DNA of 34,090 bases from Acidimicrobiaceae bacterium (GTDB lineage: Bacteria > Actinomycetota > Acidimicrobiia > Acidimicrobiales > Poriferisodalaceae), in assembly GCA_905182565.1 (NCBI GenBank), contig CAJJCB010000006.1:1-34090 (forward strand), written 5' to 3'. Shown here piece after piece: positions 64 to 32,017 of this stretch. The translations under genes were made by a program, and so were the position numbers. The notes under the pieces are model-generated. The model was not told the DNA's origin and made no database searches. It saw only the letters and a program-made list of their open reading frames with translations. Each line of letters opens with the position of its first letter. The first letter of the stretch is position 1.

Positions 64-440
64 TGCATGGCTCTCACAAGGGTTAATCGAAAAGACCACC
101 ACCTCTGCCCACATCGGAGACTAGATAGTTCAAACGGCGCTCATGCAGCTGCAATTTTTTACGATTCGGCACAGGTGAGCGTGAGATACCGATTGGTCTG
201 ATTGCTATCTGTCGGCCATGACACGATGACCACAAGAAAACCGGACCAAGCGGGATTAATCATGTAACGATATATCTTGCCAAGTTGGTTACTAAAGAAA
301 GCGTTTACCTCTTCTCTCGGGGAGATTTTCTGTTTTTGGAGTCCGCAGCCATTCATTTCTTGTTACTGTTTGACATTCTCACACCCTGTTAAACTTTGAT
401 TGCAAGGGTTTGTCCAGGGTTAGTACTTAGGAGCCTGCAA
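64..440. other. Intergenic stretch with a possible promoter for the MDR gene
   Basis: There is no convincing gene in these 377 bases. A TTGACA at 369-374 is followed, 15 bases later, by TAAACT at 390-395. This could be a promoter for the gene starting at 441, although the spacer is shorter than the usual 16-18. A 65-codon minus-strand reading frame (159-356) has no good ribosome-binding site and no recognisable motif and is not called. Confidence 0.35.
429..433 (+). promoter_or_regulatory. Ribosome-binding site fixing the start of the MDR gene at 441
   Basis: AGGAG lies 7 bases before the ATG at 441. An in-frame ATT/ATG-like extension back to 396 has no such signal, and the family alignment begins with MRAVL, so 441 is preferred. 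Confidence 0.75.
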
Positions 441-1415
441 ATGCGAGCAGTACTGTGCAAACAATTTGGACCGCCAGAGGACTTGTCAATAGTCGAACTA
501 GATGACCCAGTTCCTGGGCCGCGTGAAATTCTCATCGAAGTCAAAGCTGCGTCTGTCACATTTCCGGACACGTTGATGCTCGAGGATAAATACCAGTTCA
601 AAGCGGATCTCCCTTATGTGCCTGGTGGCGAGGTCGCAGGCATCGTCACCGCTCTGGGTGATGGGGTTGACAACCTCAAACTTGGAGCACGGGTCCTTTG
701 TCCCCTCGGATCGGTAGGAGGATACGCGGAGCTTGCAGTTACCCGGGCGTCTGCAGCGCGGGTCCTTCCTGACGCCGTAGACTTCGCTGATGCTACCGGA
801 TTGCTGTACGCGCATGGAACCACCTACTACGGCTTGAAACACAGAGGTGGTCTTCAAAAGGGCGAAACTCTTCTCGTCCTTGGCGCTGGAGGACATGTCG
901 GATTGTCAGCGGTGGAGCTAGGCAAACTGATGGGGGCGCGTGTCATTGCTGCCGCCTCGACTGAAGAAAAGCTCGATCTCTGTCGAGAGCGAGGCGCCGA
1001 TGAAACGATCAACTACTCGAAAGAAAATCTCAAAGAACGAGCGAAGGAGCTGACTGACGGAGCCGGTGTCGATGTCATTTATGACGTCGTCGGTGGCGAT
1101 TACGCGGAGCAGGCATTGCGAGCAATTGGGTGGGGCGGACGCTTCTTAGTCATCGGTTTCACAGCCGGTATACCGGCCATACCGTTGAACCTGACACTTC
1201 TGAAGAGCTGTCAAATTATCGGTGTTTTCTACGGAGCGATGACTGCTCGACAGCCTGACTTAGCTAACGAAATAGCGGAAGAGCTGCTGCAGTTAGTTGC
1301 GAATGGCCAACTCCGTCCACATATCTCCGCCAGGTATGGCCTAGAACAGGCTCCGGATGCACTTCGCAGCCTGATCGACAGGAAAGCAATCGGCAAAGTT
1401 GTCATTGAGCCCTAG
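441..1415 (+). CDS. NADPH:quinone oxidoreductase-like zinc-independent MDR protein
   Basis: This 324-residue protein belongs to the quinone-oxidoreductase branch of the medium-chain dehydrogenase/reductase superfamily, which uses NADPH to reduce quinones or enones in the cytoplasm. It has an N-terminal GroES-like domain (about residues 1-120, with PGGEVAGIV in the usual place). A Rossmann domain follows with GAGGHVGL as the nucleotide-binding glycine motif, then the alanine-rich region ending in the usual IGKVVIEP tail. The cysteine/histidine ligands for catalytic or structural zinc are absent, as expected for this branch. The length is normal. It stands alone on the plus strand and faces a thioesterase gene. 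The substrate cannot be read from sequence; acryloyl-CoA-reductase-like activity is an alternative within the family. Confidence 0.9.
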   Translation: MRAVLCKQFGPPEDLSIVELDDPVPGPREILIEVKAASVTFPDTLMLEDKYQFKADLPYVPGGEVAGIVTALGDGVDNLKLGARVLCPLGSVGGYAELAVTRASAARVLPDAVDFADATGLLYAHGTTYYGLKHRGGLQKGETLLVLGAGGHVGLSAVELGKLMGARVIAAASTEEKLDLCRERGADETINYSKENLKERAKELTDGAGVDVIYDVVGGDYAEQALRAIGWGGRFLVIGFTAGIPAIPLNLTLLKSCQIIGVFYGAMTARQPDLANEIAEELLQLVANGQLRPHISARYGLEQAPDALRSLIDRKAIGKVVIEP

Positions 1416-1536
1416 CCTGCCTTCAAGGGCCAGTGAACTCGCTTCTTCTGAGCACACAGTTCTTTTCGGGTTATGGACTCGGTGCATGTTGGTTTAATAG
1501 CACCTACCGGTCGCCCCAACACTCAAAGCGAACCAA

Positions 1537-1884
1537 TCACCTATCCACGATGAAGCGCTGGTGGGTTCCCTCGGACACCAAGGTTTCCCTATGACTTACC
1601 TTCACATTAAACACGAGCCGTTTACGATCAACTTCGGCTAGGTCAGCATCGATTACGACACTTTCTCCCGACGCAATAGCTGCTTGATGGCTTACGCAGA
1701 CATGAATACCCACCGTGGTTTGTCCTTCGTCGAGGTGCGGTTGGACACCAAATAAACAAGTGCCCTCAATAAGTCGGACCATATCTGGAGTTGATAAAAC
1801 CTTGTTCGGTAGGTGCGGCGGCGACATCTCATCGGTTACTTCGACTGTGTCGCTGAAAAGGAGACCAACTTGGAGTTCACTCAT
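1537..1884 (-). CDS. FlK-like hotdog-fold thioesterase
   Basis: This 115-residue protein resembles the fluoroacetyl-CoA thioesterase (FlK) type of single-domain hotdog thioesterases. Thr32 (in LSTP), Glu40 (in RLIEG) and His66 (in VSHQA) keep the same mutual spacing (8 and 26 residues) as the Thr42/Glu50/His76 catalytic triad known for FlK. The C-terminal half shows the usual RLVFNVKV strand and the ending GTHQRFIVDR. It probably hydrolyses a small acyl-CoA thioester. Most family members are housekeeping or detoxifying thioesterases, so fluoroacetate specificity should not be assumed. It converges with the MDR gene. The ribosome-binding site is weak. Confidence 0.8.
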   Translation of the reverse strand: MSELQVGLLFSDTVEVTDEMSPPHLPNKVLSTPDMVRLIEGTCLFGVQPHLDEGQTTVGIHVCVSHQAAIASGESVVIDADLAEVDRKRLVFNVKVSHRETLVSEGTHQRFIVDR

Positions 1885-2196
1885 GAACCCATTTTAGCTC
1901 GAATAGCTACTTCAGGTAATAAGAAATCGGGTTGGTTGCTATGTGGCAGCCAGGACAAAGGCCCGAATAAACAAATTGATAAATGATGAAGATGATCAAC
2001 TAATCTCTGCGCCCAAACAGAAAAAGATCAAGTATCTCCTCTCGTTACACACCAAAGCACCGCTCATAGGCATCGTTGAGCTGTTAGAGGGTCTTCAGAC
2101 TTGCTTCATCGAACTCGAAGTTCCACTGCCAGAAGTCGCTCTAATAAAAATTCTAGTGTCGACAGGAATGCCATCACAGCCTTTCTTGAGCCATTT
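1885..2196. other. Gap between two minus-strand genes, at most one doubtful small ORF
   Basis: These 312 bases should contain the promoter of the thioesterase gene. Apart from the doubtful plus-strand frame listed separately I see no RNA gene, repeat or clear terminator. Confidence 0.4.
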
Positions 2197-2200
2197 TTAA
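1943..2200 (+). CDS. Doubtful small hypothetical protein
   Basis: An 85-codon frame with a GTG start runs through the gap and ends 4 bases inside the antisense end of the PPOX gene. The predicted product is lysine-rich at the N-terminus and leucine/isoleucine-rich in the middle, with no recognised motif. There is only a weak purine stretch upstream of the GTG. It fills the gap neatly and has a plausible composition, which is the only reason it is listed. It could equally be chance. Confidence 0.22.
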   Translation: MAARTKARINKLINDEDDQLISAPKQKKIKYLLSLHTKAPLIGIVELLEGLQTCFIELEVPLPEVALIKILVSTGMPSQPFLSHF

Positions 2201-2649
2201 CCTTGAGGAGAATTCCCAAGGATCCGGTCCGGCATGACAAAAACGGCTACCCGTCGCTCATGAGCCATCGCTCGGTCATATTCGTCAAAATCGTCATGGA
2301 CACCACCTGCAGCCTGATACACCTCTCGCAATAAAAGTCGGAGAGCTTCGCTATCCATACCTTCAGGTAAATTATCTGGGCCGACTATCTCGGCTGGGCC
2401 AGTTACCGAGATCCAATTCCAACCCCGACGGATCGCTACCGTGACTTCAGACCCTCGTCTTATGTGGGTAATTCGCGCTGCTTTCCCCATCGAGACCAAC
2501 GCCACAGAGGAAATACCGGTTATCGGGTGGTCGCTCACTCCGCAGTTAACAACGCTAGACAACACTCGACCATCTTGTTGGGTAGTGCTCACCGTCGCGA
2601 GCCCAGTTTCTTTGCTTAAATAGGCTTTTGCTTTCTCTAGATCCTGCAT
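2197..2649 (-). CDS. F420-dependent PPOX-class (split beta-barrel) protein
   Basis: This 150-residue protein has the pyridoxamine-phosphate-oxidase-like split-barrel fold of the actinobacterial F420-binding class. Visible traits are the N-terminal helix followed by GLATVSTTQQDGRVLSSVV, a central strand with GKAARITHIRRGSEVTVAI, and the VTGPAEIVGP strand. These proteins bind flavin or F420 and reduce diverse small molecules. The exact substrate is unknown. The start ATG at 2649 has an AGGGG-type ribosome-binding site about 9 bases upstream. It lies downstream of the SDR gene on the same strand, with a 123-base gap, and may share redox duties with it. Confidence 0.8.
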   Translation of the reverse strand: MQDLEKAKAYLSKETGLATVSTTQQDGRVLSSVVNCGVSDHPITGISSVALVSMGKAARITHIRRGSEVTVAIRRGWNWISVTGPAEIVGPDNLPEGMDSEALRLLLREVYQAAGGVHDDFDEYDRAMAHERRVAVFVMPDRILGNSPQG

Positions 2650-2772
2650 TCCAAAGTCCCCTTATCTTCAGTCCACTTTTTTAGTTTGACATTTTCAATT
2701 GTCGAAAACTATATTTCGTAGCTTCACAATAGGCCAGTAGCAATCTGGTTTTTGTCTCTCTCGGGGATTTCA

Positions 2773-3534
2773 TTATTGCGCTGTCCAACCACCATCGACC
2801 ATAAGAGTGGTTCCATTTATCAAGCCCGCTGCGGGTGATGCCAAAAATACTACCGCACCGACTACGTCTGAAACCTGTCCGAATCGCCCCATTGGGATTC
2901 TGGCTAACAGATCGCCTCCGATGGCAGGGTCGATTAGTCGATCATGTGTCATCGGTGTATCTATAGCGGTAGGACCAACGGCTACCACTCGCACTCCTGA
3001 AGGTGCTAGTTCTACGGCTATAGATTTAGTAAAACCTTCTATAAAGTGTTTGGTAGCAGCGTAGATGCTGTTATTTGGTCGGCCGTTCTTACCGAACGTT
3101 GATGACATGTTTATGATTACTCCAGAACCCTGTGGCTTCATAATTTTCGCTACAGCTTGAGCGACGAGCACTGCTCCTCGACAATTCACCTGCAAGAGCG
3201 TGTCTAGGTCCTCTTCAGTTAGATCGACTAGCGAAGATGCTTTGCTCACACCGGCATTGTTGACCAAGATGTCGAGATTGTTGATTCTAGATATTTGTGC
3301 TTTGACTGAGGCGCTATCAGAAACATCGCAGACTATCGCTCGTGCGACTCCGCCATTGTTTCTTATATCTGCGACAACCTCGTCAAGTTCAGCGGCTGTT
3401 CGGCTCATCACAATAACTTCAGCTCCCGCATTAGCCAGAGCTAAAGCACATCCTCGACCAATTCCACGGCCAGCTCCGGTTACGAGAGCTACCTGGCCAT
3501 CAACACGCATTGAAGGGAAAGAAGTTTCATTCAT
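2773..3534 (-). CDS. Classical short-chain dehydrogenase/reductase (SDR)
   Basis: With the start at 3534 the protein has 253 residues, the normal size for a classical SDR. It shows the cofactor motif TGAGRGIG (residues 19-26), the NNAG motif, a serine in INMSS, the YAATK active site (Tyr158, Lys162), and the C-terminal NGTTLMVDGG typical of 3-ketoacyl-ACP-reductase/glucose-dehydrogenase-like members. An upstream in-frame ATG at 3561 would add a nine-residue extension with no homologous look, so it was not chosen. ATG at 3510 is another possible start. The gene is divergent from the FAD monooxygenase, with a 280-base shared regulatory region. The substrate is not predictable. Confidence 0.85.
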   Translation of the reverse strand: MNETSFPSMRVDGQVALVTGAGRGIGRGCALALANAGAEVIVMSRTAAELDEVVADIRNNGGVARAIVCDVSDSASVKAQISRINNLDILVNNAGVSKASSLVDLTEEDLDTLLQVNCRGAVLVAQAVAKIMKPQGSGVIINMSSTFGKNGRPNNSIYAATKHFIEGFTKSIAVELAPSGVRVVAVGPTAIDTPMTHDRLIDPAIGGDLLARIPMGRFGQVSDVVGAVVFLASPAAGLINGTTLMVDGGWTAQ

Positions 3535-3814
3535 AGCTAAACCATACAGACACAAACACATTGAGCTTGTTGGTTTGAACCCATCAACTTGTTAAACCGA
3601 GTGAGCGCATAACTCTCTCGTCTATCAGCAAAGGATAAGTTATTTAGTCAGTGCATAAACAACTAACAGGAATGTCCAGTTGTAGTTAGCATGCTGCTAG
3701 CCGCTGACTTTTAGCGTGTTAGGAAAATTAAGGTTTGTTTGTCAACACACATGCGGATTTTCACGCTAGACGGGCTAGTCGCATTCTCCTTTCATCAATC
3801 TGTATTGTGTCTAT
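3535..3814. promoter_or_regulatory. Divergent promoter region between SDR and monooxygenase genes
   Basis: The region is AT-rich and carries a widely spaced inverted repeat, TAGCGTG at 3712-3718 and CACGCTA at 3762-3768. A TATTGT at 3803-3808 ends 6 bases before the GTG start at 3815, which lacks a ribosome-binding site. This arrangement is what a leaderless transcript would look like. Confidence 0.35.
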
Positions 3815-5449
3815 GTGACCGATACTCAAGTACTCATAGTTGGAGGGGGAAGCGTTGGGCTTTCACTTTCAGCAGAATTAGCTCATCATGACGTCACCAG
3901 CGTTGTTGTTGAAGAGCTAACGAACGTAAATCCACATCCGCGCGCTAACGCCATTGCTTGTCGGACAATGGAATATTATCGACGCTGGGGCATAGCTGAT
4001 TCTTTAGTTGCTGCCGGGATACCACCAGAAAACCCAGCGGATTACTACTGGATAAGTTCGCTTAGCGGGAGAGAAATCCACAGGCTATCTCTCCCTAGCC
4101 AAACCCAGTTAGAAACCCTGAGACGTACTACAGAGTTTTCAATAGACAATCGGCTGCATTGGTCGGCATACATTAAATGCAATGTTGGACAAAATGAAGT
4201 AGATCAAATTCTGCGTGATCATCTAGACACGCTAAGGCAGAGCCAACTGAAGTCAGGTGTTCGCGCTGTTCGGTACATCGAACATGATGACCACATTGAA
4301 ACCATCTTGTTTGATCCTGCGACCTCTACAGAGTCACAAATCACCTCCAAATTTTTGGTTGGGTGTGACGGTGGTCGGTCCGTTATCCGTAATCAACTCG
4401 GCATCGCTTATGAGGGCGACGGTAACCTCGCACAGTTCGTTTCTGTCTATTTCCGAGCGCCTGAACTAATGGCTGCACATGCCTTCGGCCCGGCCAACAT
4501 TTATTTCCCTCTGCACCATGACCACGCCGGATATCTGATTAATTGGGATCACGGAGAGTCTTGGACCTATCACATTCAACTAAAAGCCAATGAGTCTTGG
4601 GATGAGGTTGACGCGATCGCCCGAATAACAAACCTGCTTGGAGCTGAGACACCCATCACGATCGAATCAATCCAGCCTTGGACAGCGCATGCTCTTACTG
4701 CATCATCATTTGGCTCAGGACGAGTATGGCTAGCCGGCGATGCCGCTCACTTGTTCTCTCCCACCGGTGGATTCGGAATGAATACCGGTGTTTCTGATGC
4801 AGTTGACCTTGCCTGGAAACTCAGAGCGGTTATTGAGGGTTGGGGAGGCCCAAACCTTTTAGCGAGTTACGACACTGAGCGGCGCCCAATTGGGTCACGA
4901 AATACTCAGCTCGCGAAAGAGCTATATGAACGGCTTGCTTCAGTAATGGAGCTAGGCGATATTCTTAACGAGGACTCCGCAGAGGCTGACCAAGCAAGGC
5001 TGACGCTAAAAGCGGACCTAGTAGAACAAGAGAGTCTTATCGCTTCGTTCGGTGTTCTACTGGGTTACCGTTACGCTAATTCACCTATCTGCATTGCTGA
5101 TGGCACACCAGAACCTGAAGATCATCCCCAAATGTATGTACCCACATCAAGGCCTGGTCACAGAGCACCTCATATTTGGCTAACAGAAGATGAAACTCTT
5201 TACGATCGTTTTTCTGTCGGTTTCAACTTAGTCAGAACGAATCCATCGGTTGATATTTCTGATTTCGTGGCTGAAGCGACTAAGCGAGAGTTGCCCTTAG
5301 CTGTCGTGGATATAGACACCCCCGAAACCCAAACCGTTTATCCATGCGCTTTAACTCTTGTACGGCCGGATCTTATGGTCGCATGGAGAGCTAACTTAGC
5401 TCCAACAACATCAGAAGATCTTTGGGATAAAGTAACCGGTCATTTCTAA
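3815..5449 (+). CDS. FAD-dependent aromatic-ring monooxygenase (PheA/MhpA-like)
   Basis: This 544-residue flavoprotein belongs to the group A hydroxylases (FAD_binding_3), which use NAD(P)H and O2 to hydroxylate aromatic or polyketide-like rings. The FAD-binding GGGSVG is at residues 10-15. The DG motif sits in GCDGGRS (Asp185). The GD motif is in LAGDAAHLFSPTGGFGMNTG (Asp309). A C-terminal thioredoxin-like tail of about 130 residues matches the longer phenol/3-(3-hydroxyphenyl)propionate hydroxylase type. The GTG start has no Shine-Dalgarno sequence and may be leaderless. It opens a co-directional block with DUF169, amidohydrolase, CobW and CoA-transferase genes, which suggests catabolism of a hydroxylatable ring compound. 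Some relatives inactivate antibiotics, so the substrate remains open. Confidence 0.88.
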   Translation: MTDTQVLIVGGGSVGLSLSAELAHHDVTSVVVEELTNVNPHPRANAIACRTMEYYRRWGIADSLVAAGIPPENPADYYWISSLSGREIHRLSLPSQTQLETLRRTTEFSIDNRLHWSAYIKCNVGQNEVDQILRDHLDTLRQSQLKSGVRAVRYIEHDDHIETILFDPATSTESQITSKFLVGCDGGRSVIRNQLGIAYEGDGNLAQFVSVYFRAPELMAAHAFGPANIYFPLHHDHAGYLINWDHGESWTYHIQLKANESWDEVDAIARITNLLGAETPITIESIQPWTAHALTASSFGSGRVWLAGDAAHLFSPTGGFGMNTGVSDAVDLAWKLRAVIEGWGGPNLLASYDTERRPIGSRNTQLAKELYERLASVMELGDILNEDSAEADQARLTLKADLVEQESLIASFGVLLGYRYANSPICIADGTPEPEDHPQMYVPTSRPGHRAPHIWLTEDETLYDRFSVGFNLVRTNPSVDISDFVAEATKRELPLAVVDIDTPETQTVYPCALTLVRPDLMVAWRANLAPTTSEDLWDKVTGHF

Positions 5450-5450
5450 A

Positions 5451-5470
5451 TAAGTTGAGGTGCCAACTTA
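5451..5470 (+). terminator. Small hairpin after the monooxygenase gene
   Basis: TAAGTTG and CAACTTA form a perfect 7-bp stem around the 6-base loop AGGTGC, directly after the stop codon at 5449. There is no T-tract, so it may be an mRNA-stabilising stem rather than a terminator. Confidence 0.3.
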
Positions 5471-5611
5471 AACGTTCGACAAAACTCGTAGACAGCTGTT
5501 TCCCAGATGCAATGTCCCACAAAAAATTTTAAACATTTCGATGTATCTTCTGTTTTGACCCAACCCCACAGTCACACATAAAGCATTGAGCTTTAGATAA
5601 AGGCACCTAAT

Positions 5612-6325
5612 ATGAAACCATCTGAGATATCTGAAGCTCTCAATCGTTATTTGCATCCAGTCACAAAACCGGTTGCAATCACATTCCATAGCAGCGTGCC
5701 ATCTAGTCCTCGGGCTCACGCTGGGCGAAAGCCAGAGCCAACTGAAGATGGCCGGACGGGCGCTGTCTCTGCTGGTTGTGTTTTTTGGGTAGATGGTGCA
5801 GTCAACTCTTTTACTACAACGCCCGCTGATCACAGAAATTGCTCTGTGGGTTCTTACACTCACGGAATGATAAGTGCTGAAGCTGCTGCAACCTCAGCTG
5901 ATATTGCAACAGTGCTTGAAGTTGGTTGGATAACCCCTCAACAATTTGGTGACGTACCTGCTATCGCCATATCTCCAGCAGCAGTTACTTACGGGCCTCT
6001 ATGTGAACAGACTCAAATCCCCGATGTTGTACTCCTACGTCTCTCCCCACACGGAGTAATGTTGGTAGGTGATGCTTGTCCAGGGCTTCAGATAGAGGGA
6101 AAGCCCCAATGCCATATTGTTGCTATTGCTCACAATGACCAACGTCCTGCAGCTTCAGTCGGGTGCGCTCTATCAAGGGCCAGAACAGGAATGACAGTGA
6201 ACGAGATGACGGTAGCGCTACCGGGGCCTCAGCTTGACTCCATAATCACTGCTCTTGATTATGCTCACATAGCAGCTGCCAACGTAGCTAAATACGCCGC
6301 TTCCGATGCCCAACGTTTCCACTAG
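5612..6325 (+). CDS. DUF169 family protein
   Basis: This 237-residue protein matches DUF169, a family of unknown function. The best evidence is the C-terminal signature GC(ALS)R..TG....EM...P at residues 184-205. An N-terminal KPVAITF strand and a series of cysteines (56, 77, 131, 156, 167, 185) add to it, several lying in glycine-rich turns. The cysteines suggest metal, cofactor or thiol chemistry, but this is an inference. A likely promoter lies upstream (TTGACC at 5555-5560, CATAAA about 16 bases later), and AAGG precedes the ATG. It sits between the monooxygenase and the amidohydrolase on the same strand, so it may act in the same pathway. Confidence 0.7.
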   Translation: MKPSEISEALNRYLHPVTKPVAITFHSSVPSSPRAHAGRKPEPTEDGRTGAVSAGCVFWVDGAVNSFTTTPADHRNCSVGSYTHGMISAEAAATSADIATVLEVGWITPQQFGDVPAIAISPAAVTYGPLCEQTQIPDVVLLRLSPHGVMLVGDACPGLQIEGKPQCHIVAIAHNDQRPAASVGCALSRARTGMTVNEMTVALPGPQLDSIITALDYAHIAAANVAKYAASDAQRFH

Positions 6326-6545
6326 CAGAATGTAACTGAAACAGACCTGGAGCTCACACCATCGCCAGAACCGATATTTTTTGAGTGATTGATCTACGTG
6401 AAATTTAAACGAGATCAGCATGCACAAGTTCCTATGATGCTTGCCTTAAGGGTTTCCAGAAATTAAAAACTATTTGAAGACTCTCTATGAGCCTCATCGT
6501 CGGTTCCAAAAAGCATCAATTGTTTCGATGTGCGAAGATTAAATT

Positions 6546-8207
6546 ATGCATATAACAGTTTTCCCTGCTGCTCAGATTCACACAATGGACCCGGGAAGAC
6601 CTCACGCCTCCGCCGTTGCTGTTGCAGATGGCCGGATAGTCTCTACGGGAACAATTAAATCGATGCAACCCTGGCTGCGACGAAATACTTATGAAATCGA
6701 TGACAGGTACGCAGACAAAATTATCTTTCCCGGATTCATTGACCCCCACACACACCTTAGATATAGCGGTGTCTACATGGGACTCAACTATGTCGGCCCA
6801 ATCGATTCAGCATCACCTACAGGCCTCCGGAAAGGGCTACCAACCCGAGACGCTGTGCGTAACCAGTTACGAAGCCTCGTCTCAGAACATGATGACTCCT
6901 CGAAACCGTTAACAGCATGGGGCTATGACCCCGCCTCTCAAGAAGGCCATTTAGATCGAGACATGCTCGATGCTATTAGTGACACAATCCCTCTTTGGGT
7001 CGTTGCTTACGCCCCACATATCGTTTATGTAAATTCCCCGATGCTTAAATTAATTGGAGTAGATGAGGACAGTATCGGTCACGGTCTTGGCAGATACCCC
7101 GATGGCCGTTTAAATGGTTGGTTCGTTGAGACAGAAGCGATAGCGCGAGCGACACGTCCAGTGGCCGACAGCGTCTACGCTGACGATTCTGGAAGCCAAG
7201 CTATTGAACGGATGGGCGCAGTAGCTCAACGAGCGGGATTGACCACGACCGCTGACCTTGGTTGGGGTTTTAGCGAAAGCTTCGAAAAAGAATGGGCAGA
7301 CCACCGCTCGGCAATAGACAATGACAAGTTCCCTCTTCGAATACTGATGATTCCATTTGAGGCGAGATTGACTCGCGATTTCGGTGATGAGGCAATCAAC
7401 TACTTAGCAGGCAAACGCCTCGAAGGCGATGACCGGCTAAACACTCACGGAATCAAATACGTGAACGATGGCTCTTATCCATCAATGACTTTGGTAATGA
7501 ACCAACCTGGCTACCTAGATGATGACACAGCACATACCGGAGAAATTCCTTGGGAAAATATGGTTGATCGTATGCGACCTTTTTGGAAAGCTGGTATCCA
7601 AATTCACTCTCACGCTAACGGCGACCGAACTGTCGACATGACTTTAGACACCCTCGCAGCGCTGCAGTTAGAACATCCAAGATTCGATCACCGGTTTACG
7701 ATCGAGCATTACTGCTTAAGTAATCCATCGCAAGCAAAACGATTGGCGGCGCTAGGTGGTTTAGCGAGCGTCAACATTTATTTCGTGCATTATCGTGCTC
7801 AGCTGCACAGTGATCGTGGCTTTGGCCCCGACCGAAGCGAAGCAACTGCGCGTCTGGGCTCTCTGGAACGAGCAGGGGTTACGTTTGCGCTACACAGCGA
7901 CTTTAATCTAGTGGTAACACCCCTTTCGCCATTAACAGCTGCGTGGTGTGCCGTTAATCGGTTAGCGGCCGATGGTTCTACTGTGATGGCTCCCGGCGAA
8001 AGAATTTCCGTTGATAGAGCGCTTCGCGCTATGACCATAGATGCAGCTCATGTACTCAATCGTGACGATCGACTTGGTTCAATAGAAGTTGGAAAATACG
8101 CAGATTTCACTGTTCTAGATGACGATCCATATGAAGTAAATGTTCAAGAGCTAAACCGTATTTCAGTGCATGACACGGTTCTCGAAGGTATCCCGGTCAC
8201 AAAATGA
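6546..8207 (+). CDS. YtcJ-like metal-dependent amidohydrolase (copy A)
   Basis: This 553-residue protein belongs to the amidohydrolase_3/YtcJ family of TIM-barrel hydrolases, which usually carry one or two zinc ions and hydrolyse amide or imine bonds in small molecules. The HxH of strand 1 is His68/His70 in FIDPHTH. The HSHANGD and TIEH segments supply further ligands. LHSD supplies the catalytic aspartate, and IEVGKYADFTVLDDDP is the typical C-terminal signature of the composite beta-sandwich. There is no signal peptide, so it is cytoplasmic. Its stop overlaps the start of the CobW gene by four bases (ATGA), so the two are translationally coupled. A second copy with the same downstream partner lies at 29368-31026. 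The substrate is unknown. Confidence 0.9.
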   Translation: MHITVFPAAQIHTMDPGRPHASAVAVADGRIVSTGTIKSMQPWLRRNTYEIDDRYADKIIFPGFIDPHTHLRYSGVYMGLNYVGPIDSASPTGLRKGLPTRDAVRNQLRSLVSEHDDSSKPLTAWGYDPASQEGHLDRDMLDAISDTIPLWVVAYAPHIVYVNSPMLKLIGVDEDSIGHGLGRYPDGRLNGWFVETEAIARATRPVADSVYADDSGSQAIERMGAVAQRAGLTTTADLGWGFSESFEKEWADHRSAIDNDKFPLRILMIPFEARLTRDFGDEAINYLAGKRLEGDDRLNTHGIKYVNDGSYPSMTLVMNQPGYLDDDTAHTGEIPWENMVDRMRPFWKAGIQIHSHANGDRTVDMTLDTLAALQLEHPRFDHRFTIEHYCLSNPSQAKRLAALGGLASVNIYFVHYRAQLHSDRGFGPDRSEATARLGSLERAGVTFALHSDFNLVVTPLSPLTAAWCAVNRLAADGSTVMAPGERISVDRALRAMTIDAAHVLNRDDRLGSIEVGKYADFTVLDDDPYEVNVQELNRISVHDTVLEGIPVTK

Positions 8208-9184
8208 CTGAATTGGAATTTGCTTGGAACGCAACTGTAAATTCGATTTTATCTGCAAGGTCGGACTCACACAGGCCAGGGGGCACCGATCTGCCGGTTC
8301 TCATACTCACGGGTTTGCTAGGGAGCGGTAAAACAACCATCTTTCGTCAGCTTCTAAATGGCGACCATAAACTCCGTATTGCAGTAATCGTAAATGACGT
8401 GGCGTCTATTAACATCGACGGATTATTTCTCGCTGAGAGCGGCGTTGAACAAATTGAGTTGACTAACGGATGCATGTGCTGCTCTCTTTCCGATGATTTA
8501 GAAGCAGAACTTAATCAGATTGCTGAAGCCGAGATCTTTGATGCCGTCGTTATCGAAGCAAGCGGAGCTTCAGATCCAGTGTCAGTAGCGAACGCAATCA
8601 GAAACGTCAAAGGGTGCCGAATAGACGGAATTATCGCTGTCGCTGATGCTGAACAAATTTGTCGCCAGATTCATGACGAAAACATGGGGCACTTAGCTAA
8701 GCGCCAGCTTCAAACTTCGCAGTTGATTCTTCTATCTAAAGCAGACTATGTCGACGCAGACCAACTTGCGCAAGCAATAAAACAGATTGCAGAAGTCGCA
8801 CCCGGAAGAATGGTCCTTCCCTGTGAATTTGGCCACATAGATCCGCAGATTCTTATGAGCGCTGCGATGCGAGGCGTTGCATTAGAGCCTGAGCCCGAAA
8901 CGCACACTGTTGGGTTAGCTACCGAAGTGATAGAGCCTGCTGGGCCCTGGCCATTAGCTGATCTTCAAGAGTGGCTGATGAGCGATAATTTGGATCTGCT
9001 CAGAATAAAAGGCTGGTTTTTGGGATCCGATAATGAAACCTATGAACTTCAGCTAGTTGGTTCGCGTTGGACAATAACCGAGGTCGACATCCAAACTTAT
9101 AAACACGCATTAGCAATTATCGGTGGCGATAGCAAAGCCCTCAATGCTGCGGTTTCTGTTTTACAAAACCTGACCCCAACTTAA
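8204..9184 (+). CDS. COG0523/CobW-type G3E GTPase (copy A), putative metallochaperone
   Basis: This 326-residue protein has the hallmarks of the COG0523 metal-transfer GTPases. It has a Walker A GLLGSGKTT (residues 37-45), a metal-binding CMCC (residues 90-93), VIEASGASDP as the switch region, and a CobW C-terminal domain around the KGWFLG segment. The G4 motif reads SKAD instead of the usual NKxD. An N-terminal extension of about 30 residues before the first strand is longer than normal. It overlaps the amidohydrolase gene by four bases, so the proteins should be made together. The likely role is GTP-dependent delivery of zinc or another metal to that amidohydrolase; this is inferred from the pairing. 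Confidence 0.88.
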   Translation: MTELEFAWNATVNSILSARSDSHRPGGTDLPVLILTGLLGSGKTTIFRQLLNGDHKLRIAVIVNDVASINIDGLFLAESGVEQIELTNGCMCCSLSDDLEAELNQIAEAEIFDAVVIEASGASDPVSVANAIRNVKGCRIDGIIAVADAEQICRQIHDENMGHLAKRQLQTSQLILLSKADYVDADQLAQAIKQIAEVAPGRMVLPCEFGHIDPQILMSAAMRGVALEPEPETHTVGLATEVIEPAGPWPLADLQEWLMSDNLDLLRIKGWFLGSDNETYELQLVGSRWTITEVDIQTYKHALAIIGGDSKALNAAVSVLQNLTPT

Positions 9185-9334
9185 ATTGATCGGCAAAGCA
9201 AGGACGAAGCAGCAAATCGGCTTCATCTCAATCTAACGACTATCTGAAAGTTCCTTAACCAGCGTTAGAAGCCTCATCAGAACGCTACATAGAACATCTG
9301 ACTATGCTTCTTTCTATCGATCTGTAGGGGGAGC

Positions 9335-11746
9335 ATGCTCGGACACATCACAGTTATTGACCTATGTAACGGAGTTAGCCAATTCGGTAGTCATGTTTTG
9401 TCGCGTCTCGGCGCAGACGTCATAGCTGTAGAGCCACCAACCGGAGTAGCTACTCGACATACCGGTCCGTTCGTTGATGACATACGGGATCCAAATGCAA
9501 GTCTCACTCATTGGGCTTACAACCGAGGAAAGAAATCTATTGTCTTAGATTTGAGTGTGGCCGAAGATCGCGACAAGTTTCTCGAACTTGTCTCTACAGC
9601 AGATATTTTATTTGAAGATCAGGCTCCTGGCAGCCTTGCTTCCATCGGCTTGGCATATCCAGATTTAGCGTTAGTGAATCCTCAGCTAATCCACTCTTCC
9701 ATTACTCCATATGGCAGCACCGGGCCGCGATCTCATTGGCAAGGGTCAGATCTTACCGCTGTAGCAGGAAGCTCTTTTATGCACATCAGTGGCGACGCCG
9801 ACCGAGCTCCGCTTCGAGTTGGTTTGCCTCATAGTTTTCTCCAGGCATCAGCAGATGCTGCCGCAGCAAGCCTTATTGCACTGCAAGAACGTCACAAGAG
9901 CGGGCATGGTCAACACATTGACGTTTCAGCTCAAGAGTCTCTGACACACGCAAACCCTTCAGACCTCTCATACTTGGCGAATGCAACATCTGTTCGTCGA
10001 ATGGCTGGTGGTGTTAACACGGGTGGGATTGAGATACCGTTAGTTTTCCCGTGCAAAGACGGCTACACGATCTCAGTAATTTTACCCGGTGCAGCGTTCG
10101 GTCGATTCGCTGATCGCCTCACAAGCTGGATTGACGAAGAAGGAATGGCGGATCAAAACGTTCTTTCTTTAGACTGGGAGAATCTCGGCACACACCTACT
10201 GAACGGTGAAATAAGCGGTGACGTCGTCGTTAACGCTTTTCAGACATTCGGCACGTTTCTGGCGACTAAGACTAAAGCTGAATTGTGGGCGGCAGCGCTC
10301 GAAAAAAACTTACTTATTACTCCATCTATGACTATTGCAGACCTGGTCAAATACGAGCACCTAGAGGCTCGCCATTTTTGGGAGAGACAAGACGCAGGTA
10401 ACGGAAAAGATGCTCTATACCCCGGGCAGCTAGTTAAGTTCAGAAGCCCTCTAGACAACAGTTCTGATAAACCACCAAAGCTCGGCGAGCACAACGAGCT
10501 ACTCGACACCATACGTCGCAAGCCAACCCAAAGCAGCAGGCCAACGAGCACTTCTCTTCCGCTTGATGGCCTCAAAGTCTTAGAGTTCTCTTGGGTCATA
10601 GCGACCCCGTCCGCGGTCCGTATTCTCTGTGACTACGGAGCTACAGTTGTCAAAGTTGAAACAGCTAGCAGGCCCGACACGATGCGAACGGTGAATCCAT
10701 TCGTAGATAATGAGCCTCACCCTGATAATAGCGTTGGGTACGGTGTCTACAATGCCGGGAAACGTAGCATTAGCCTCGACTTGACTAACCCTGAATCGCG
10801 CGAGGTTGTACTTGATCTAATTCGCTGGGCAGATGTAGTCACGGAGTCGTTTGCTCCTGGAACTATGAAGCGTTTGGGATATGGGTACGAAACGCTTTCA
10901 GAAATTAACCCTCAGCTAATCATGCTCTCAAGCTCCCTGCTCGGACAGACGGGGCCACATTCAACAATTGCCGGATACGGATTCATGGCAGCAGCTATTG
11001 CCGGCTATTACGAATTAACCGGATGGGCGGATCGCCCTCCTGCTGGACCCTACGGACCTTATACCGACTATTTGGCACCAAGAGTTGTTGTTGCAACTTT
11101 GATGGCGGCGTTAGAAAATCGGAATAGAACTGGTGAAGGCGAATACATTGATTTATCTCAGACTGAAACCGCTTTGCATTATTTAGCGCCGGCGATTCTA
11201 GATCAGAGCGTCAATGGTCGGACGATACAACGCCAGGGAAATGATGACCCTCACATGTATCCCCACGGGGTTTATCTATCGGCAGGTGAAGACTCGTGGA
11301 TTGCGCTTGCTTGCACTAATGCAATGTGGCCAGCTCTTGCCAAAAAAATACGACTCGATAGCATGGCCGGCCTCAATCAATCAGATAGACGGGCTCAACG
11401 CGATATCATCGAAACCGCTATCTCGGCCTGGACCACAACAATCACGAATACTGCGGCGGCTGAAGAGCTTCAGGCATCTTTGATTGATGCTTACCCTGTT
11501 AACGATGCCAAAGAAGTAACCACTGACCCGCAACTACTTTTCAGGAACCACCAAATTCAAGTTCCTCAAAGCCACTCGGGTGAAATGTGGACCCACTCTT
11601 GCCGAACAAAAATGTCTCGAACACCTGCAAAGCTAGAACGTGGGGGGCCATGCCTCGGTGAAGATAACTTCGAAATCCTTAGTGAATTCTTGGGTTACTC
11701 AGTAGATCGGATCGCTGAAATAGCGGCTGCTGAAGCACTTGAATAG
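9335..11746 (+). CDS. Tandem-fused class III (CaiB/BaiF) CoA-transferase
   Basis: This 803-residue protein consists of two complete CaiB/BaiF-type family III CoA-transferase units, about residues 1-390 and 405-800; the usual single-domain length is about 400. Each half repeats the family landmarks: an N-terminal V(I/L)-D/E-(L/F) strand, NRGKKSIVLDL versus NAGKRSISLDL, ADIL/ADVV followed by the APG motif, and G(H/E)G(Q/E)(H/Y)IDLS. Only the second half has an aspartate (Asp578, in YTDYL) at the place of the catalytic Asp169 of formyl-CoA transferase. The first half has Ser167-Phe168 there. The enzyme therefore probably carries one active and one degenerate site. The ATG at 9335 has an AGGGGGA ribosome-binding site. 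It probably activates an acid of the local pathway with CoA. Confidence 0.9.
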   Translation: MLGHITVIDLCNGVSQFGSHVLSRLGADVIAVEPPTGVATRHTGPFVDDIRDPNASLTHWAYNRGKKSIVLDLSVAEDRDKFLELVSTADILFEDQAPGSLASIGLAYPDLALVNPQLIHSSITPYGSTGPRSHWQGSDLTAVAGSSFMHISGDADRAPLRVGLPHSFLQASADAAAASLIALQERHKSGHGQHIDVSAQESLTHANPSDLSYLANATSVRRMAGGVNTGGIEIPLVFPCKDGYTISVILPGAAFGRFADRLTSWIDEEGMADQNVLSLDWENLGTHLLNGEISGDVVVNAFQTFGTFLATKTKAELWAAALEKNLLITPSMTIADLVKYEHLEARHFWERQDAGNGKDALYPGQLVKFRSPLDNSSDKPPKLGEHNELLDTIRRKPTQSSRPTSTSLPLDGLKVLEFSWVIATPSAVRILCDYGATVVKVETASRPDTMRTVNPFVDNEPHPDNSVGYGVYNAGKRSISLDLTNPESREVVLDLIRWADVVTESFAPGTMKRLGYGYETLSEINPQLIMLSSSLLGQTGPHSTIAGYGFMAAAIAGYYELTGWADRPPAGPYGPYTDYLAPRVVVATLMAALENRNRTGEGEYIDLSQTETALHYLAPAILDQSVNGRTIQRQGNDDPHMYPHGVYLSAGEDSWIALACTNAMWPALAKKIRLDSMAGLNQSDRRAQRDIIETAISAWTTTITNTAAAEELQASLIDAYPVNDAKEVTTDPQLLFRNHQIQVPQSHSGEMWTHSCRTKMSRTPAKLERGGPCLGEDNFEILSEFLGYSVDRIAEIAAAEALE

Positions 11747-11785
11747 CGTTTCATAAGTCATTTTTTAGCTAGCTAAGATTAAGAT

Positions 11786-11818
11786 ATGACACCTTCGGCC
11801 GTTATCAGAGCAACTTGA
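11786..11818 (+). other. Possible leaderless 10-codon upstream ORF
   Basis: An ATG at 11786 lies 6 bases after a TAAGAT (11774-11779) that could be a -10 element, the geometry of leaderless transcripts. The frame has ten codons and its TGA (11816-11818) overlaps the TTG at 11815 from which the lipoprotein frame opens. This could couple translation of the two. It is an interpretation of spacing only. Confidence 0.25.
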
Positions 11819-13086
11819 TTGGAAACATCTTGGGTCCTCGTTTAGTTTGCATCTCGATTTTGTTTCTAATCACTTCATGTGGCACAAGTTCCAATGCCTT
11901 TAACAATTCGGTCTCTTCAGCTTCGCCTAGCTCCCTAACAACTTCCACCCCAGAAACCAATAACTCGTCGCAACCTTCACCAACTTCGGCCGCACCGTCC
12001 ACGACTACAATCGCCGAACCACCCATAGCTACAATCGCCGAGAAAACCATCCCGGAAGCCTTCAGGCCGGTTTCTGTTTTAATGGAAGCTCTAATTGAGG
12101 AACACGGCCTTACCGGAGCTGGCCTAATTGTTGTAGATGAAGATCAAGGCATTCTCTACCATGACCACTGGAAGAACTTTAACGAGGAACGAGTATCTCT
12201 TATCGCCTCGGCATCGAAGATAATTACTGCGGGTGTGCTCCTGCATCTAAACGATGCAGGGGTATTGGATATAGATGCACCGATAAGCGACGTTATCGAC
12301 TATGCCGGTGTTCTTGGAAATATCACCGCAGCGCAGCTCTTATCAAATAGTTCAGGTCTTGTCGGACTTGAAATTAACTACCTGTACCTCTGTAATTTTC
12401 TCTCATCAGGCACAATTCAGCAATGCGCTAAAAGTATTTTAGCTAACGCAGCGATTGACCCCCGCACTGTAGAACCTGACACCGAATTTCGCTATGGAGG
12501 TCCCCAGTGGCAGGTTGCAGGTGCTGTCGCTGAGGCCGCTTCAGGGAAATCTTGGCATGAGTTAGTCAATGATATTTACACCGAGCCATGTGGAATGAAA
12601 CATTTTGGGTACTCCAACCCCTTCGGGGAATTCGCGTTTTCAGATTTTGCGTATCCTGATTGGGATGGAGATTTGTCTGTTCTGAAGTACACCGATAATC
12701 CCAATCTTGGAGCCGGCGCCTACATCACCACGGGTGATTATGGAAAACTTCTCCAAATGCATCTAAATGGTGGAATGTGCGACACTAATCAGGTTCTTTC
12801 TCCAGAAGCGGTAGTAGCACTGCAGGAAAATCGGACAGGTCGAATGTACAACTCATCTGTCAACTACGGAATGGGCTGGTGGATCGATACGGAACCTGCC
12901 GGGATCGCTGAATCAACGACACGCGTAAGCAGTCCCGGAATTTTCGGGGCTATTTCATGGCTGCAGCCTGAAACGGGATTCGGTGCGTATCTGGTCATCG
13001 AAGACAAGTCCTCTACCCGTCAGGCTTTCGCTAAGCAACTTTTCGACTTAATAGAAACAGCGGTGCTCTCGCAGCGAGAGGAATAG
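11815..13086 (+). CDS. Secreted beta-lactamase-family serine hydrolase lipoprotein
   Basis: This protein of up to 423 residues begins with a lipoprotein signal peptide (hydrophobic core ILFLITS, lipobox ITSC, lipidated Cys22), followed by a Ser/Thr/Pro-rich linker to about residue 75. The catalytic domain is of the class C beta-lactamase/DD-peptidase/esterase type (PF00144), with SxxK at Ser132-Ala-Ser-Lys135 and the Tyr of the second motif at Tyr227 in FRYGG. It would be anchored outside the membrane and act on peptides, esters or cell-wall fragments; true beta-lactamase activity is not implied. There is no ATG in frame. TTG at 11815 or TTG at 11830 are the candidate starts, both with weak ribosome-binding sites. 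Confidence 0.8.
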   Translation: MIGNILGPRLVCISILFLITSCGTSSNAFNNSVSSASPSSLTTSTPETNNSSQPSPTSAAPSTTTIAEPPIATIAEKTIPEAFRPVSVLMEALIEEHGLTGAGLIVVDEDQGILYHDHWKNFNEERVSLIASASKIITAGVLLHLNDAGVLDIDAPISDVIDYAGVLGNITAAQLLSNSSGLVGLEINYLYLCNFLSSGTIQQCAKSILANAAIDPRTVEPDTEFRYGGPQWQVAGAVAEAASGKSWHELVNDIYTEPCGMKHFGYSNPFGEFAFSDFAYPDWDGDLSVLKYTDNPNLGAGAYITTGDYGKLLQMHLNGGMCDTNQVLSPEAVVALQENRTGRMYNSSVNYGMGWWIDTEPAGIAESTTRVSSPGIFGAISWLQPETGFGAYLVIEDKSSTRQAFAKQLFDLIETAVLSQREE

Positions 13087-13507: not shown

Positions 13508-13513
13508 AGGAGG
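13508..13513 (+). promoter_or_regulatory. Ribosome-binding site fixing the DUF1015 start at 13519
   Basis: AGGAGG is a full consensus Shine-Dalgarno sequence 5 bases before the GTG at 13519. An earlier in-frame GTG at 13513 overlaps the motif itself and cannot be used with it, so the later GTG is chosen. Confidence 0.8.
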
Positions 13514-15442: not shown

Positions 15443-17170
15443 CTATCTGCGTCCTCGTACCAACCGCCCCGGCCTCGCACCAGTAAATTCATCGTTTTCA
15501 CGGACAATTTCTCCTGCGACGATTGTTGCTTTATAGCCGAAAGACTCTTGCATGAGGCGCGGAGCACCAGTGGGAAGATCATAAACCATTTCTGGCGCAG
15601 AAATTCCCAGTGCATCATAATCAAGGACGTTCAGATCAGCACGTTTCCCAACCTCTAGGGTTCCCCTGTCTCCTAAAAGTCCGTAGATCTCAGCGGTGTC
15701 ATGTGTCATCAGCTTCACTGCTTCTTCGATTTTCATTTTTGGACCGTTGCTTCGATCACGTGTCCAGTGACTAAGCATGTACGTGGGTGTCGAAGCATCG
15801 CAAATTAATCGACAGTGTGCCCCACCATCAGAAAGACTCCAAAAAGCACCGTGGTGGTTCAGTCGCTCATAAGTTGGATCGAGTGTGTGCTCTGAAAAAT
15901 CGGTTAATGGGAAGAACATCAAGCCTTTTCCGCTATTACTCATCAGCACGTCATACGCGTACTCATACGGATCACAATCAGCTTGTTTGGCCAGAGCTCC
16001 AACCGAGTCTTCAGGTGTGGGCTCGTAGTTAGGTTGTTCAGTTAACGGGTACATCTTATGAAATCCATGAGCGACGTCATGGTTGAACCGCCCTGTGTAT
16101 CCAGTGCTTTCTGAAAGAATTTTTTTCTTTACCGACTCTTTTGACATTTCAGTTACGAGCTCGGTGCGTGACAGCGATTCCGCTAGTTGCACATATGTGG
16201 GGTGCATTTTGAAAGGGTGGAGAGAGGTCTCTAATCCGAACAGCAGTCCTGCGGGTCGCCCAGCTATTTGAGCCATAACTCTTCCCGGTCCGTCAAGTGG
16301 TGCAGATGACATTTCCAGCAAGTCCCTCCATTGTTGAGGGTCTCGGTCTGCTTGTGTTAGAGCATAGGTAACTGTCAGCCCATAGCTGCCGGCAAGTTCA
16401 CGCATCCATTCAATATCAGTGCCGAAATTACCTTCAAGGCCGCCAAGACCGATGTCAGAGGCTACTTCGACAACACCTCCGCCGGCTTCAGCTACCGCTC
16501 GGCCGAGAGCAATTATTTCTTCTGCTCCAGCGAATGTTCCCGGAACTGGCTCTCCATCAAGAGCGCGGTGGAGCATGGTCCGTGAAGAAGTAAAACCGAG
16601 GGCTCCTGCTTCGATTCCTTCTTGGACGATTTGTGCCATTGCGATCAAATCGTCTGCGGTCGGTTCTTCATTACGAGCTCCGCGTTCACCCATCACGTAA
16701 GCACGAACAGAACCGTGGGGTACTTGGGTAGCTATATCCATTACACGTGGCATCTTCTCGAGAGCTTCTAGGTATTCAGGAAAAGTTTCCCAATTCCATT
16801 CAATGCCTTCAGCTAGAGCAGCACCTGGTATGTCTTCCACTCCTTCCATGAGTTGAATCAACCAGTCATGACTATCTGGTTTAGCTGGTGCAAAACCCAC
16901 GCCACAGTTACCGAAGACGGTGGTAGTCACACCGTGAAACGAAGACGGACTCATCTCTGGGTCCCATGTGGCTTGGCCATCGTAATGAGTATGGACGTCC
17001 ACAAACCCTGGCGTCACCAGACAGCCATCTGCATCAACTTCTCTAAGCCCCGGTCCAACATTTGTCCCGAGTTCCGAAATGCATCCATCGTCGATAGCTA
17101 TATCAATTTTTTGTACTTTAGTTCCGGTCCCGTCAACCACATTGCCTGATCGAATCACCATGTCGTGCAT
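15443..17170 (-). CDS. N-acyl-D-amino-acid deacylase-type amidohydrolase
   Basis: This 575-residue protein is a D-aminoacylase/dihydroorotase-like amidohydrolase (COG3653). It has the HxH metal motif in VDVHTHYDGQ, the FGNCGVG cysteine-containing motif typical of D-aminoacylases (the cysteine is a metal ligand in that family), the SDGGAH aspartate segment near the C-terminus, and the closing LEVGKRADLNVLD signature. It removes acyl groups from N-acyl-D-amino acids or related amides in the cytoplasm. The start at 17170 has GGGGAG about 7 bases upstream. It is divergent from an esterase gene, with a palindrome in the shared region. D-amino acids from peptidoglycan are a plausible source, but this is inferred. 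Confidence 0.88.
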   Translation of the reverse strand: MHDMVIRSGNVVDGTGTKVQKIDIAIDDGCISELGTNVGPGLREVDADGCLVTPGFVDVHTHYDGQATWDPEMSPSSFHGVTTTVFGNCGVGFAPAKPDSHDWLIQLMEGVEDIPGAALAEGIEWNWETFPEYLEALEKMPRVMDIATQVPHGSVRAYVMGERGARNEEPTADDLIAMAQIVQEGIEAGALGFTSSRTMLHRALDGEPVPGTFAGAEEIIALGRAVAEAGGGVVEVASDIGLGGLEGNFGTDIEWMRELAGSYGLTVTYALTQADRDPQQWRDLLEMSSAPLDGPGRVMAQIAGRPAGLLFGLETSLHPFKMHPTYVQLAESLSRTELVTEMSKESVKKKILSESTGYTGRFNHDVAHGFHKMYPLTEQPNYEPTPEDSVGALAKQADCDPYEYAYDVLMSNSGKGLMFFPLTDFSEHTLDPTYERLNHHGAFWSLSDGGAHCRLICDASTPTYMLSHWTRDRSNGPKMKIEEAVKLMTHDTAEIYGLLGDRGTLEVGKRADLNVLDYDALGISAPEMVYDLPTGAPRLMQESFGYKATIVAGEIVRENDEFTGARPGRLVRGRR

Positions 17171-27362: not shown

Positions 27363-28265
27363 TCAAGAGACAAACCGAGGAATTCTTTCTGTTTGTTGCG
27401 TATAAGGAAATTCGTCTACGAATCCCGCGAGCAGTCTGAACATCTCGGGGTCAGAACAATCATCGACGAGTTCCTGTGGGAAGAGGTTTTTAATATCGTC
27501 CTGCGGGAGGATCATGTAATGGCGGAAATAGTTAGCGATGGATAGACGCATGCCAGGGCTCACTCGTGGAAAAGCTCCATGCCAAGTCGCTCCATGAAAC
27601 ACGATTAGTGATCCAGCAGGGGTTTCTATAGGTACCGCTAGTTCAACTGCTTCAGGAAAACGCGGGGGTTCCATACGGCGATGTGATCCCGGCACGTAAG
27701 CCATGGCTCCATTCTCTTGGGTGTAATCGGTTAGACACCAGTTGGTGTTCGCTGTGAGAGCATTACGGCCCCATGGTCGAGGTACCGCCATTTGGTCACA
27801 GTGCAATCCAAGGTTCCGTCCGTAACCGAACTCGCCTTGCCATTTGATGAAAGCGTTGTGGCTGCTGAAACGCGTGGCATTGTTTCCGATCATGTGCCGG
27901 ATCAGCGCTAATCCAACTGGGTTAATTGCAAGGTCGCGAAATAAACGATCACGAGCACAAAGTTGCTGGACAAGAAATTGAGTTGGTTCTCCGCTATCTC
28001 CACTGAATCGGGCAATGACGTTTTCATCTGGGTTCATAGTGAGCGGAGTATCTGGTCCTCTATCCAAGTCGAATCCACATCCAACAATTTGTTCGGCTTC
28101 CTCCAGAAGATGATCACGAATGGCTTTTATTGTCTCTGGTTGCACACCAGTTTTCTCGGGCGGCACTACACAAAGGCCGTCAACTTCTAGCTGTAGGACA
28201 AAATTTTCTAGTCCGAGCTCTTGAACCTCTAAGCTCAAACGGGTCTCTAAAGCCGCTCTTTCCAT
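27363..28265 (-). CDS. Phytanoyl-CoA dioxygenase (PhyH)-family oxygenase
   Basis: This 300-residue protein belongs to the PhyH family of Fe(II)/2-oxoglutarate-dependent dioxygenases. The metal-binding HxD is His155-Cys-Asp157 in LHCDQ. The distal histidine is His224 or His229 in FHGATWHGAF, and the following Arg in GMRLSI is placed to bind 2-oxoglutarate. The double-stranded beta-helix strands between (GAMAYVPGSHR, SLIVFHG) are normal. It hydroxylates an unknown small molecule in the cytoplasm. It lies 199 bases downstream of the copy-B CobW gene on the same strand, so it may be a separate unit or the end of the same catabolic block. Confidence 0.9.
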   Translation of the reverse strand: MERAALETRLSLEVQELGLENFVLQLEVDGLCVVPPEKTGVQPETIKAIRDHLLEEAEQIVGCGFDLDRGPDTPLTMNPDENVIARFSGDSGEPTQFLVQQLCARDRLFRDLAINPVGLALIRHMIGNNATRFSSHNAFIKWQGEFGYGRNLGLHCDQMAVPRPWGRNALTANTNWCLTDYTQENGAMAYVPGSHRRMEPPRFPEAVELAVPIETPAGSLIVFHGATWHGAFPRVSPGMRLSIANYFRHYMILPQDDIKNLFPQELVDDCSDPEMFRLLAGFVDEFPYTQQTERIPRFVS

Positions 28266-31784: not shown

Positions 31785-32017
31785 AGACCAATTATTAGCG
31801 CACCTTTTACAGTTCTCTTGCAAGATCAACACATTCGCTCTTTAAAACTTCGGCTAATAGCTTCTAAGGTGATCTGTTCAGCCGGGGTGTGTCGAGACTT
31901 CCGTACGACTAAATGCTATTTAACGTCATAAGCTCGTATCTGGTTACGAGACAGGAAATCAAGCAAACTAGCGAATTGTTTCGTGATCTCAGCTGTATCT
32001 GGGCTATGGGGCGCTCT

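Follow-up and report, generated by a model that had tools for sequence, protein, structure and literature searches.

A YtcJ-like amidohydrolase and its adjoining COG0523 GTPase as a probable client and dedicated metallochaperone in an Acidimicrobiaceae bacterium

We describe a stretch of 34,090 nucleotides (nt) from an Acidimicrobiaceae bacterium (assembly GCA_905182565.1, contig CAJJCB010000006.1, positions 1 to 34,090 of the forward strand; the window hereafter means this whole stretch), and in particular two overlapping plus-strand genes that encode a YtcJ-like hydrolase of the Amidohydro_3 type and a COG0523 GTPase of the CobW type. The two genes probably constitute a module in which the hydrolase is provided with its own GTPase as a dedicated metallochaperone; this is the simplest reading of the evidence, and the GTPase is most likely a cofactor loader for the amidohydrolase and not a pathway enzyme. 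The two-gene unit supersedes a five-gene degradation pathway that a preliminary description of the sequence had guessed for positions 3815–11746, because gene order in relatives is kept only for the pair. The module comprises:

6546–8207, plus strand: Amidohydro_3 (YtcJ-like) hydrolase of 553 amino acids, the proposed client (Pfam PF07969, 204.5 bits, cut-off 29.7)
8204–8207, plus strand: 4-nt overlap (ATGA) of the hydrolase and CobW genes, as read in the sequence
8204–9184, plus strand: CobW/COG0523 G3E GTPase of 326 amino acids, the proposed dedicated metallochaperone (Pfam and motifs)

Five plus-strand open reading frames (ORFs) were located at 3815–5449, 5612–6325, 6546–8207, 8204–9184 and 9335–11746. 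As the preliminary description had it, there are five genes with two of them overlapping, and Pfam bears out the families that it assigned, namely a flavin adenine dinucleotide (FAD) hydroxylase, DUF169, an amidohydrolase, a CobW GTPase and a fused coenzyme A (CoA) transferase. The sole overlap among the five is that of the amidohydrolase and CobW genes, which may couple their translation through the shared ATGA; the remaining gaps are 162, 220 and 150 nt. Overlaps of 4 nt between hydrolase and CobW genes are annotated also in Sulfitobacter, Burkholderia and Caballeronia.

By its domains, P-loop and CxCC motif, the protein encoded at 8204–9184 is assigned to the COG0523/CobW-type G3E GTPases. 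It scores 147.5 bits against Pfam cobW (cut-off 20.7) and 27.7 bits against CobW_C (cut-off 22), with a P-loop (GLLGSGKT) at residues 37–44, a CxCC motif (CMCC) at 90–93 and a G4-type motif (SKAD) at 178–181; CxCC and P-loop are kept in 62 of 62 partner GTPases. The G3E fold family, the P-loop and CxCC are features in common with YjiA, ZigA and the cobalamin CobW, but the window GTPase falls far below the NCBIfam cut-offs of all three: 107.6 bits against 332.1 for TIGR02475 (cobalamin CobW), 119.3 against 600 for NF038288 (ZigA-type) and 98 against 361 for the YjiA-type family. No NCBIfam cut-off is reached by this protein. Rfam gives no match anywhere in the window, which therefore holds no B12 riboswitch, and nitrile hydratase is absent from the ORFs scanned with Pfam (396–13086 and ten after 15000), the only part of the genome searched for it. 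Five CobW proteins without a hydrolase of this kind beside them cluster apart from the linked ones; four of their five genes adjoin a similar gene, identified as WD40 by Pfam in the two tested, and WD40-linked CobW proteins are placed in COG0523 subfamily 5 (excerpts of PMC2770081).

The hydrolase carries a two-metal ligand pattern (HxH, Lys, His, His, Asp) at H68, H70, K304, H356, H388 and D452, and all six positions are invariant in the 87 CobW-linked hydrolase sequences (87/87). Superfamily fold and ligand pattern are shared with metalloBSH, the epsilon-lysine acylase and the solved structures 3ICJ and 3IGH (excerpts of PMC13081902 and PMC10699109). In a related enzyme of the metalloBSH type, none of the corresponding metal-site residues, equated with those of the hydrolase by motif and not by alignment, is dispensable; a lysine is predicted to be carboxylated, and zinc is the best activator (PMC13081902, in excerpt). 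A difference from metalloBSH and the epsilon-lysine acylase lies in the partner, as the excerpts of the same two papers mention no CobW for them. The hydrolase scores below every equivalog cut-off among the 23 NCBIfam families listed (best 51.1 against 391 bits). Its AlphaFold model has a mean predicted local distance difference test score of 66, with weak stretches within the barrel, and therefore serves superfamily confirmation only; the nearest listed folds to this low-scoring model are two uncharacterised hydrolases, 3IGH (Foldseek E 7.9e-20; VIA Z 19.5, root-mean-square deviation 5.5 over 454 residues) and 3ICJ (2.1e-18; Z 18.2, 5.9 over 427 residues). An extra histidine, H354, was considered as a marker of CobW linkage and dropped: it is found in 82 of the 87 linked sequences and in 17 of 27 without linkage, two sequences with linkage hidden by contig ends being omitted, and in 16 of 19 and 11 of 19, respectively, after thinning at 60% identity (Fisher p = 0.15). 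The hydrolase is unusually conserved, at 75–80% identity within the family compared with 38–45% for its CobW partner.

Amidohydrolase and CobW genes adjoin each other far more often than chance would allow. In a family sample of 39 genomes (the genome of the window and 38 others), 79 amidohydrolase matches (E ≤ 1e-20) were compared with 80 CobW matches (E ≤ 1e-10), and in 65 of the 79 a same-strand CobW gene follows at no more than 2.6 kb. For hydrolase orthologues of at least 70% identity this holds in 26 of 28 matches (27 genomes). The 28 include an 81-residue piece, G010:C10, at the edge of a contig, and the two orthologues that lack the partner stop 415 and 129 nt short of contig ends. Paralogues at 30–69% identity have CobW downstream in 39 of 48 cases, and the nine unpaired ones comprise one that has part of a CobW gene at its contig end, two truncated by contig ends and six in a single genome, G006. 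Below 30% identity, none of three family matches is followed by CobW. The genome of the window has just two CobW matches, both in the window and each directly behind an Amidohydro_3 gene. Each paralogous hydrolase lineage retains its own GTPase.

Seven contig loci found via the amidohydrolase (assigned to Acidimicrobiia, Acidimicrobiales, Acidimicrobiaceae or Microthrixaceae) likewise have CobW downstream in seven of seven, and neither the FAD enzyme nor DUF169 occurs in them; at least five of the seven contigs match contigs of the family sample in length, so the two counts are not independent. In one of these loci (L006) a relative of the CoA-transferase (45% identity) lies 5–6 kb away on the opposite strand, and another (L009) holds part of one at its far end.

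Comparison of the two protein trees shows that the pair descends jointly, without partner exchange. Over the 62 pairs of usable lengths, the distances in the hydrolase and CobW trees correlate with r = 0.86, a value reached in none of 5000 within-genome partner shuffles (mean 0.11, maximum 0.46). The same lineages emerge from both trees, and with the smaller lineages pooled as one, the nearest neighbour belongs to a matching lineage in 62 of 62 cases. The mean distance in the first lineage (25 pairs) is 0.26 for the hydrolase against 1.57 for CobW, and in the second lineage (25 pairs) 0.65 against 1.60; slow change of the hydrolase is thus more marked in the first lineage.

Co-inheritance bears on an alternative in which the GTPase serves general metal homeostasis, in the manner of a Zur-type zinc response, and the adjacent hydrolase, instead of being its dedicated client, belongs to a set of several proteins under common regulation. 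Such a role is documented in other COG0523 subfamilies, where co-localisation with genes for zinc-enzyme paralogues, for instance of PyrC, also occurs (PMC2770081, in excerpt), but one-to-one co-inheritance with separate hydrolase lineages suits a dedicated role better. Zur-type sites in the window are also not above chance (17 against 21.7 expected, for a box that derives from mycobacterial sites and may not fit), and for 66 hydrolase genes the best Zur match in the preceding 300 nt always has at least two mismatches, with a spread similar to that inside genes. We regard a homeostatic function as improbable.

The pair recurs beyond the family and in other phyla. Among the 20 best plasmid matches of the hydrolase, from 145 records, 16 have a same-strand CobW gene downstream, and these 16 span nine genera and two phyla (Pseudomonadota and Bacteroidota): Mesorhizobium, Persicobacter, Pukyongiella, Sulfitobacter (two), Burkholderia (three), Paracoccus (five), Caballeronia, Tistrella and Variovorax. 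In the phylum of the window, 7 of 246 genomes, its own included, have the hydrolase at E ≤ 1e-60. Hydrolase and CobW genes are adjacent but convergent in genomes G149 (L117) and G192 (L118), so the link outlives a change of orientation. Long open frames in G069 and G149 were considered as natural fusions of the two genes and rejected, as the G069 stretch yielded no CobW and the CobW gene of G149 is the convergent one.

Several observations weigh against a dedicated chaperone. Four of the 20 best plasmid matches (Shewanella, Cupriavidus P-10, Paracoccus TOH p1 and Ensifer) are unlinked, as are five of five sampled plasmid matches below 30% identity. For 18 homologues from other organisms in 198 genomes of the class, CobW is downstream on the same strand in five, upstream in one, convergent in two and non-adjacent in 10; adjacency in any orientation (8 of 18) is thus weaker than within the family, and no CobW of the pair type is found at E ≤ 1e-15 in genomes G202, G261, G360 and G394. 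The plasmid and class counts thus show some lineages in which the two genes are strongly linked and others in which they are not linked at all. Within the family, the six second-lineage paralogues of G006 (L091–L093) stand without an adjacent CobW; the genome has one CobW of the second lineage, 7.6 kb from the nearest unpaired hydrolase, and perhaps this one chaperone is shared by several hydrolases. Related enzymes acquire their metal without a known chaperone (excerpts of PMC13081902), and in S. meliloti a CobW gene beside a formamidase, which belongs to another superfamily, is dispensable for the pathway tested (excerpts of PMC9478397). Agreement of the trees, moreover, reflects joint descent and is by itself no proof of contact.

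A dedicated metallochaperone, which we still think probable, can be modelled on Nha3 and the Fe-type nitrile hydratase, where a COG0523 GTPase is coded beside the metalloenzyme that it matures (excerpts of PMC9164220 and PMC2770081). The GTPase would bind a divalent metal at CxCC, and the metal-bearing form would dock on the apo-hydrolase and hand the metal to the two-metal site of H68, H70, K304, H356, H388 and D452, with GTP hydrolysis driving release. Nha3, a member of COG0523 subfamily 2 (PMC2770081, in excerpt), resembles the window GTPase in that its gene adjoins that of its metalloenzyme; it differs in that the window client is a two-metal amidohydrolase, that there are several paralogous pairs per genome and that chaperone action is here presumed. 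The metal would most likely be zinc, with cobalt, nickel or iron possible, and the bond cleaved is predicted to be that of an amide, a lactam or a similar C–N bond.

For most COG0523 GTPases no client is known (PMC9164220, in excerpt), and over half of COG0523 proteins may serve unknown proteins (PMC2770081, in excerpt). No description of an amidohydrolase/CobW pair was found in the literature searched, which did not extend to the 2021 COG0523 review or to the gene-context supplement of PMC2770081. The principle of a COG0523 GTPase beside its client is known, and the amidohydrolase client seems to be new. A client that stays beside its GTPase across paralogous lineages and phyla offers a concrete and cheap test of COG0523 client specificity, and a warning against screening such hydrolases without the CobW partner. 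A bolder proposal, which we consider rather unlikely, is that an amidohydrolase clade in at least three phyla, with several paralogous lineages, needs private, one-to-one, GTP-driven chaperones, and that the chaperone, not the affinity of the enzyme, sets the metal, which might then be other than zinc. If so, hydrolases expressed alone would seem dead or mis-metallated, which could account for the lack of known substrates in this branch of a common family of enzymes.

The surroundings of the pair vary between genera. In eight of nine wide loci (three genera) it lies between the same genes, which look housekeeping-like by eye; the flanks of the ninth (L049) are different. A further genus has genes for a short-chain dehydrogenase/reductase (SDR) and an ERG4/ERG24-type membrane protein (both by Pfam) between hydrolase and CobW; genes of cytochrome P450, luciferase-like, molybdenum (Mo) hydroxylase, thiamine pyrophosphate enzyme and glyoxalase-fold types are nearby. 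The Mesorhizobium plasmid orthologue (51% identity) is preceded by five genes of an ATP-binding cassette importer, with a Mo-hydroxylase gene about 12 kb away, and in Burkholderia multivorans and Caballeronia a sodium:solute symporter gene lies upstream of the pair. In 14 diverse loci, for which clustering fused hydrolase and CobW into one cluster (14/14) with no separate counts, the top recurring other neighbour is a CaiB-type gene (4 of 14, antisense frames of the pair excluded).

These neighbourhoods are relevant to the alternative that the two proteins are neighbours in one pathway, in which the metalloenzyme matured by CobW is a different one with its gene elsewhere, for instance the next to act on the same substrate. 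The SDR and ERG4/ERG24-type genes inside the pair, with which the pathway may be wider, would agree with such a client, as would the faster evolution of CobW, 2.5–6 times that of its hydrolase. The remaining evidence points the other way: no further gene family occurs in more than 4 of the 14 diverse loci (with the same exclusion of antisense frames), the eight loci from three genera have the pair amid shared, seemingly unrelated genes, and a metal site is present in the hydrolase itself. We give this alternative little credence.

In two lineages that are not related, the Mesorhizobium plasmid (L108/L127) and an Acidimicrobiia genus (L028–L029), Mo-hydroxylase genes of the xanthine dehydrogenase family lie no more than about 15 kb from the pair. 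Genes of this type are typical of N-heterocycle attack, and as neighbours they possibly hint at N-heterocycle substrates.

The three other genes of the co-directional run are neighbours without a demonstrated link to the hydrolase/CobW pair:

3815–5449, plus strand: FAD monooxygenase of group A type, 544 amino acids (Pfam FAD_binding_3 with Rng_hyd_C; nearest solved structure RebC)
5612–6325, plus strand: DUF169 protein of 237 amino acids (Pfam 42.0 bits, cut-off 27)
9335–11746, plus strand: fused class III CoA-transferase of 803 amino acids (Pfam CoA_transf_3 in two stretches)

The FAD monooxygenase has a single match at E ≤ 1e-60 (30% identity) among the 38 other family genomes, and DUF169 relatives are found in none of the 38 at E ≤ 1e-5. 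The DUF169 protein contains six cysteines, and nothing in the PDB matches it at E ≤ 1. The CoA-transferase resembles BbsE followed by BbsF of the benzylsuccinate CoA-transferase BbsEF (9FN0), with residues 5–388 best matched by 9FN0_A (BbsE) and residues 403–802 by 9FN0_B (BbsF); unlike BbsEF, it is a single polypeptide, and its function is predicted. D578 in its C-terminal half aligns with an Asp of BbsF, which we take to be the catalytic residue, and the N-terminal half has no Asp in the corresponding stretch.

The fused CoA-transferase is conserved on its own elsewhere, outside the two-gene module. At E ≤ 1e-100 it is matched in at least 36 of the 39 family genomes, among the matches listed; its orthologues are 62–71% identical, and a same-genus fragment reaches 93%. 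The other four genes are absent from its orthologue loci L023–L027 (1.5 kb flanks) and from L102 and L103 (about 6 kb), L102 and L023 being one and the same genome. In the same-genus genome G038, the corresponding contig begins inside the CoA-transferase, at the point matching window position 10264, and the preceding stretch is therefore not comparable within the genus.

The preliminary description had taken the five genes as one unit and had named gene order in relatives as the test that could refute it. The overlapping amidohydrolase/CobW pair is real, but the five-gene order is absent from relatives, which refutes the block as a conserved unit, and a five-gene pathway in that sense is rejected. 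A route of N-heterocycle or aromatic amide catabolism, assembled recently in this lineage and proceeding by ring hydroxylation, C–N hydrolysis and CoA activation, could nevertheless be imagined from the common strand and the compatible enzyme classes, from the CaiB-type CoA-transferase genes near the pair in 4 of the 14 diverse loci and from the Mo-hydroxylase genes near it in one Acidimicrobiia genus and on the Mesorhizobium plasmid. CaiB-type genes are abundant, however, with 12 long matches at E ≤ 1e-100 in the own genome among those listed, so some proximity is expected. The data from relatives oppose the route, with DUF169 in none and the FAD enzyme in one of the 38 other family genomes and the CoA-transferase orthologues standing away from the other four genes at the loci inspected, as do the gaps of 150–220 nt, and we hold it to be very unlikely. 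The co-directional run extends past 11746, with a beta-lactamase-like gene at 11815–13086 and then plus-strand ORFs at 13513 and 14808, and between 3500 and 12000 promoter-like matches (8 against 9.6 expected) and terminator-like matches (9 against 7.9 expected) are at chance. Apart from the common strand, no result here backs a five-gene block.

Further Amidohydro_3 genes lie downstream in the window, one of them with its own GTPase:

29368–31026, minus strand: second Amidohydro_3 hydrolase, diverged from the first (36% identity)
28465–29361, minus strand: CobW partner of the second hydrolase, separated from it by a 6-nt gap, with P-loop GYLGAGKT and CxCC at residues 67–70

The third Amidohydro_3 enzyme of the window (15443–17170, 575 amino acids) has no CobW adjoining. 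The second pair is flanked by genes for a PhyH dioxygenase (27363–28265), a CMD-family protein (31224–31832) and a VOC protein (32018–32551).

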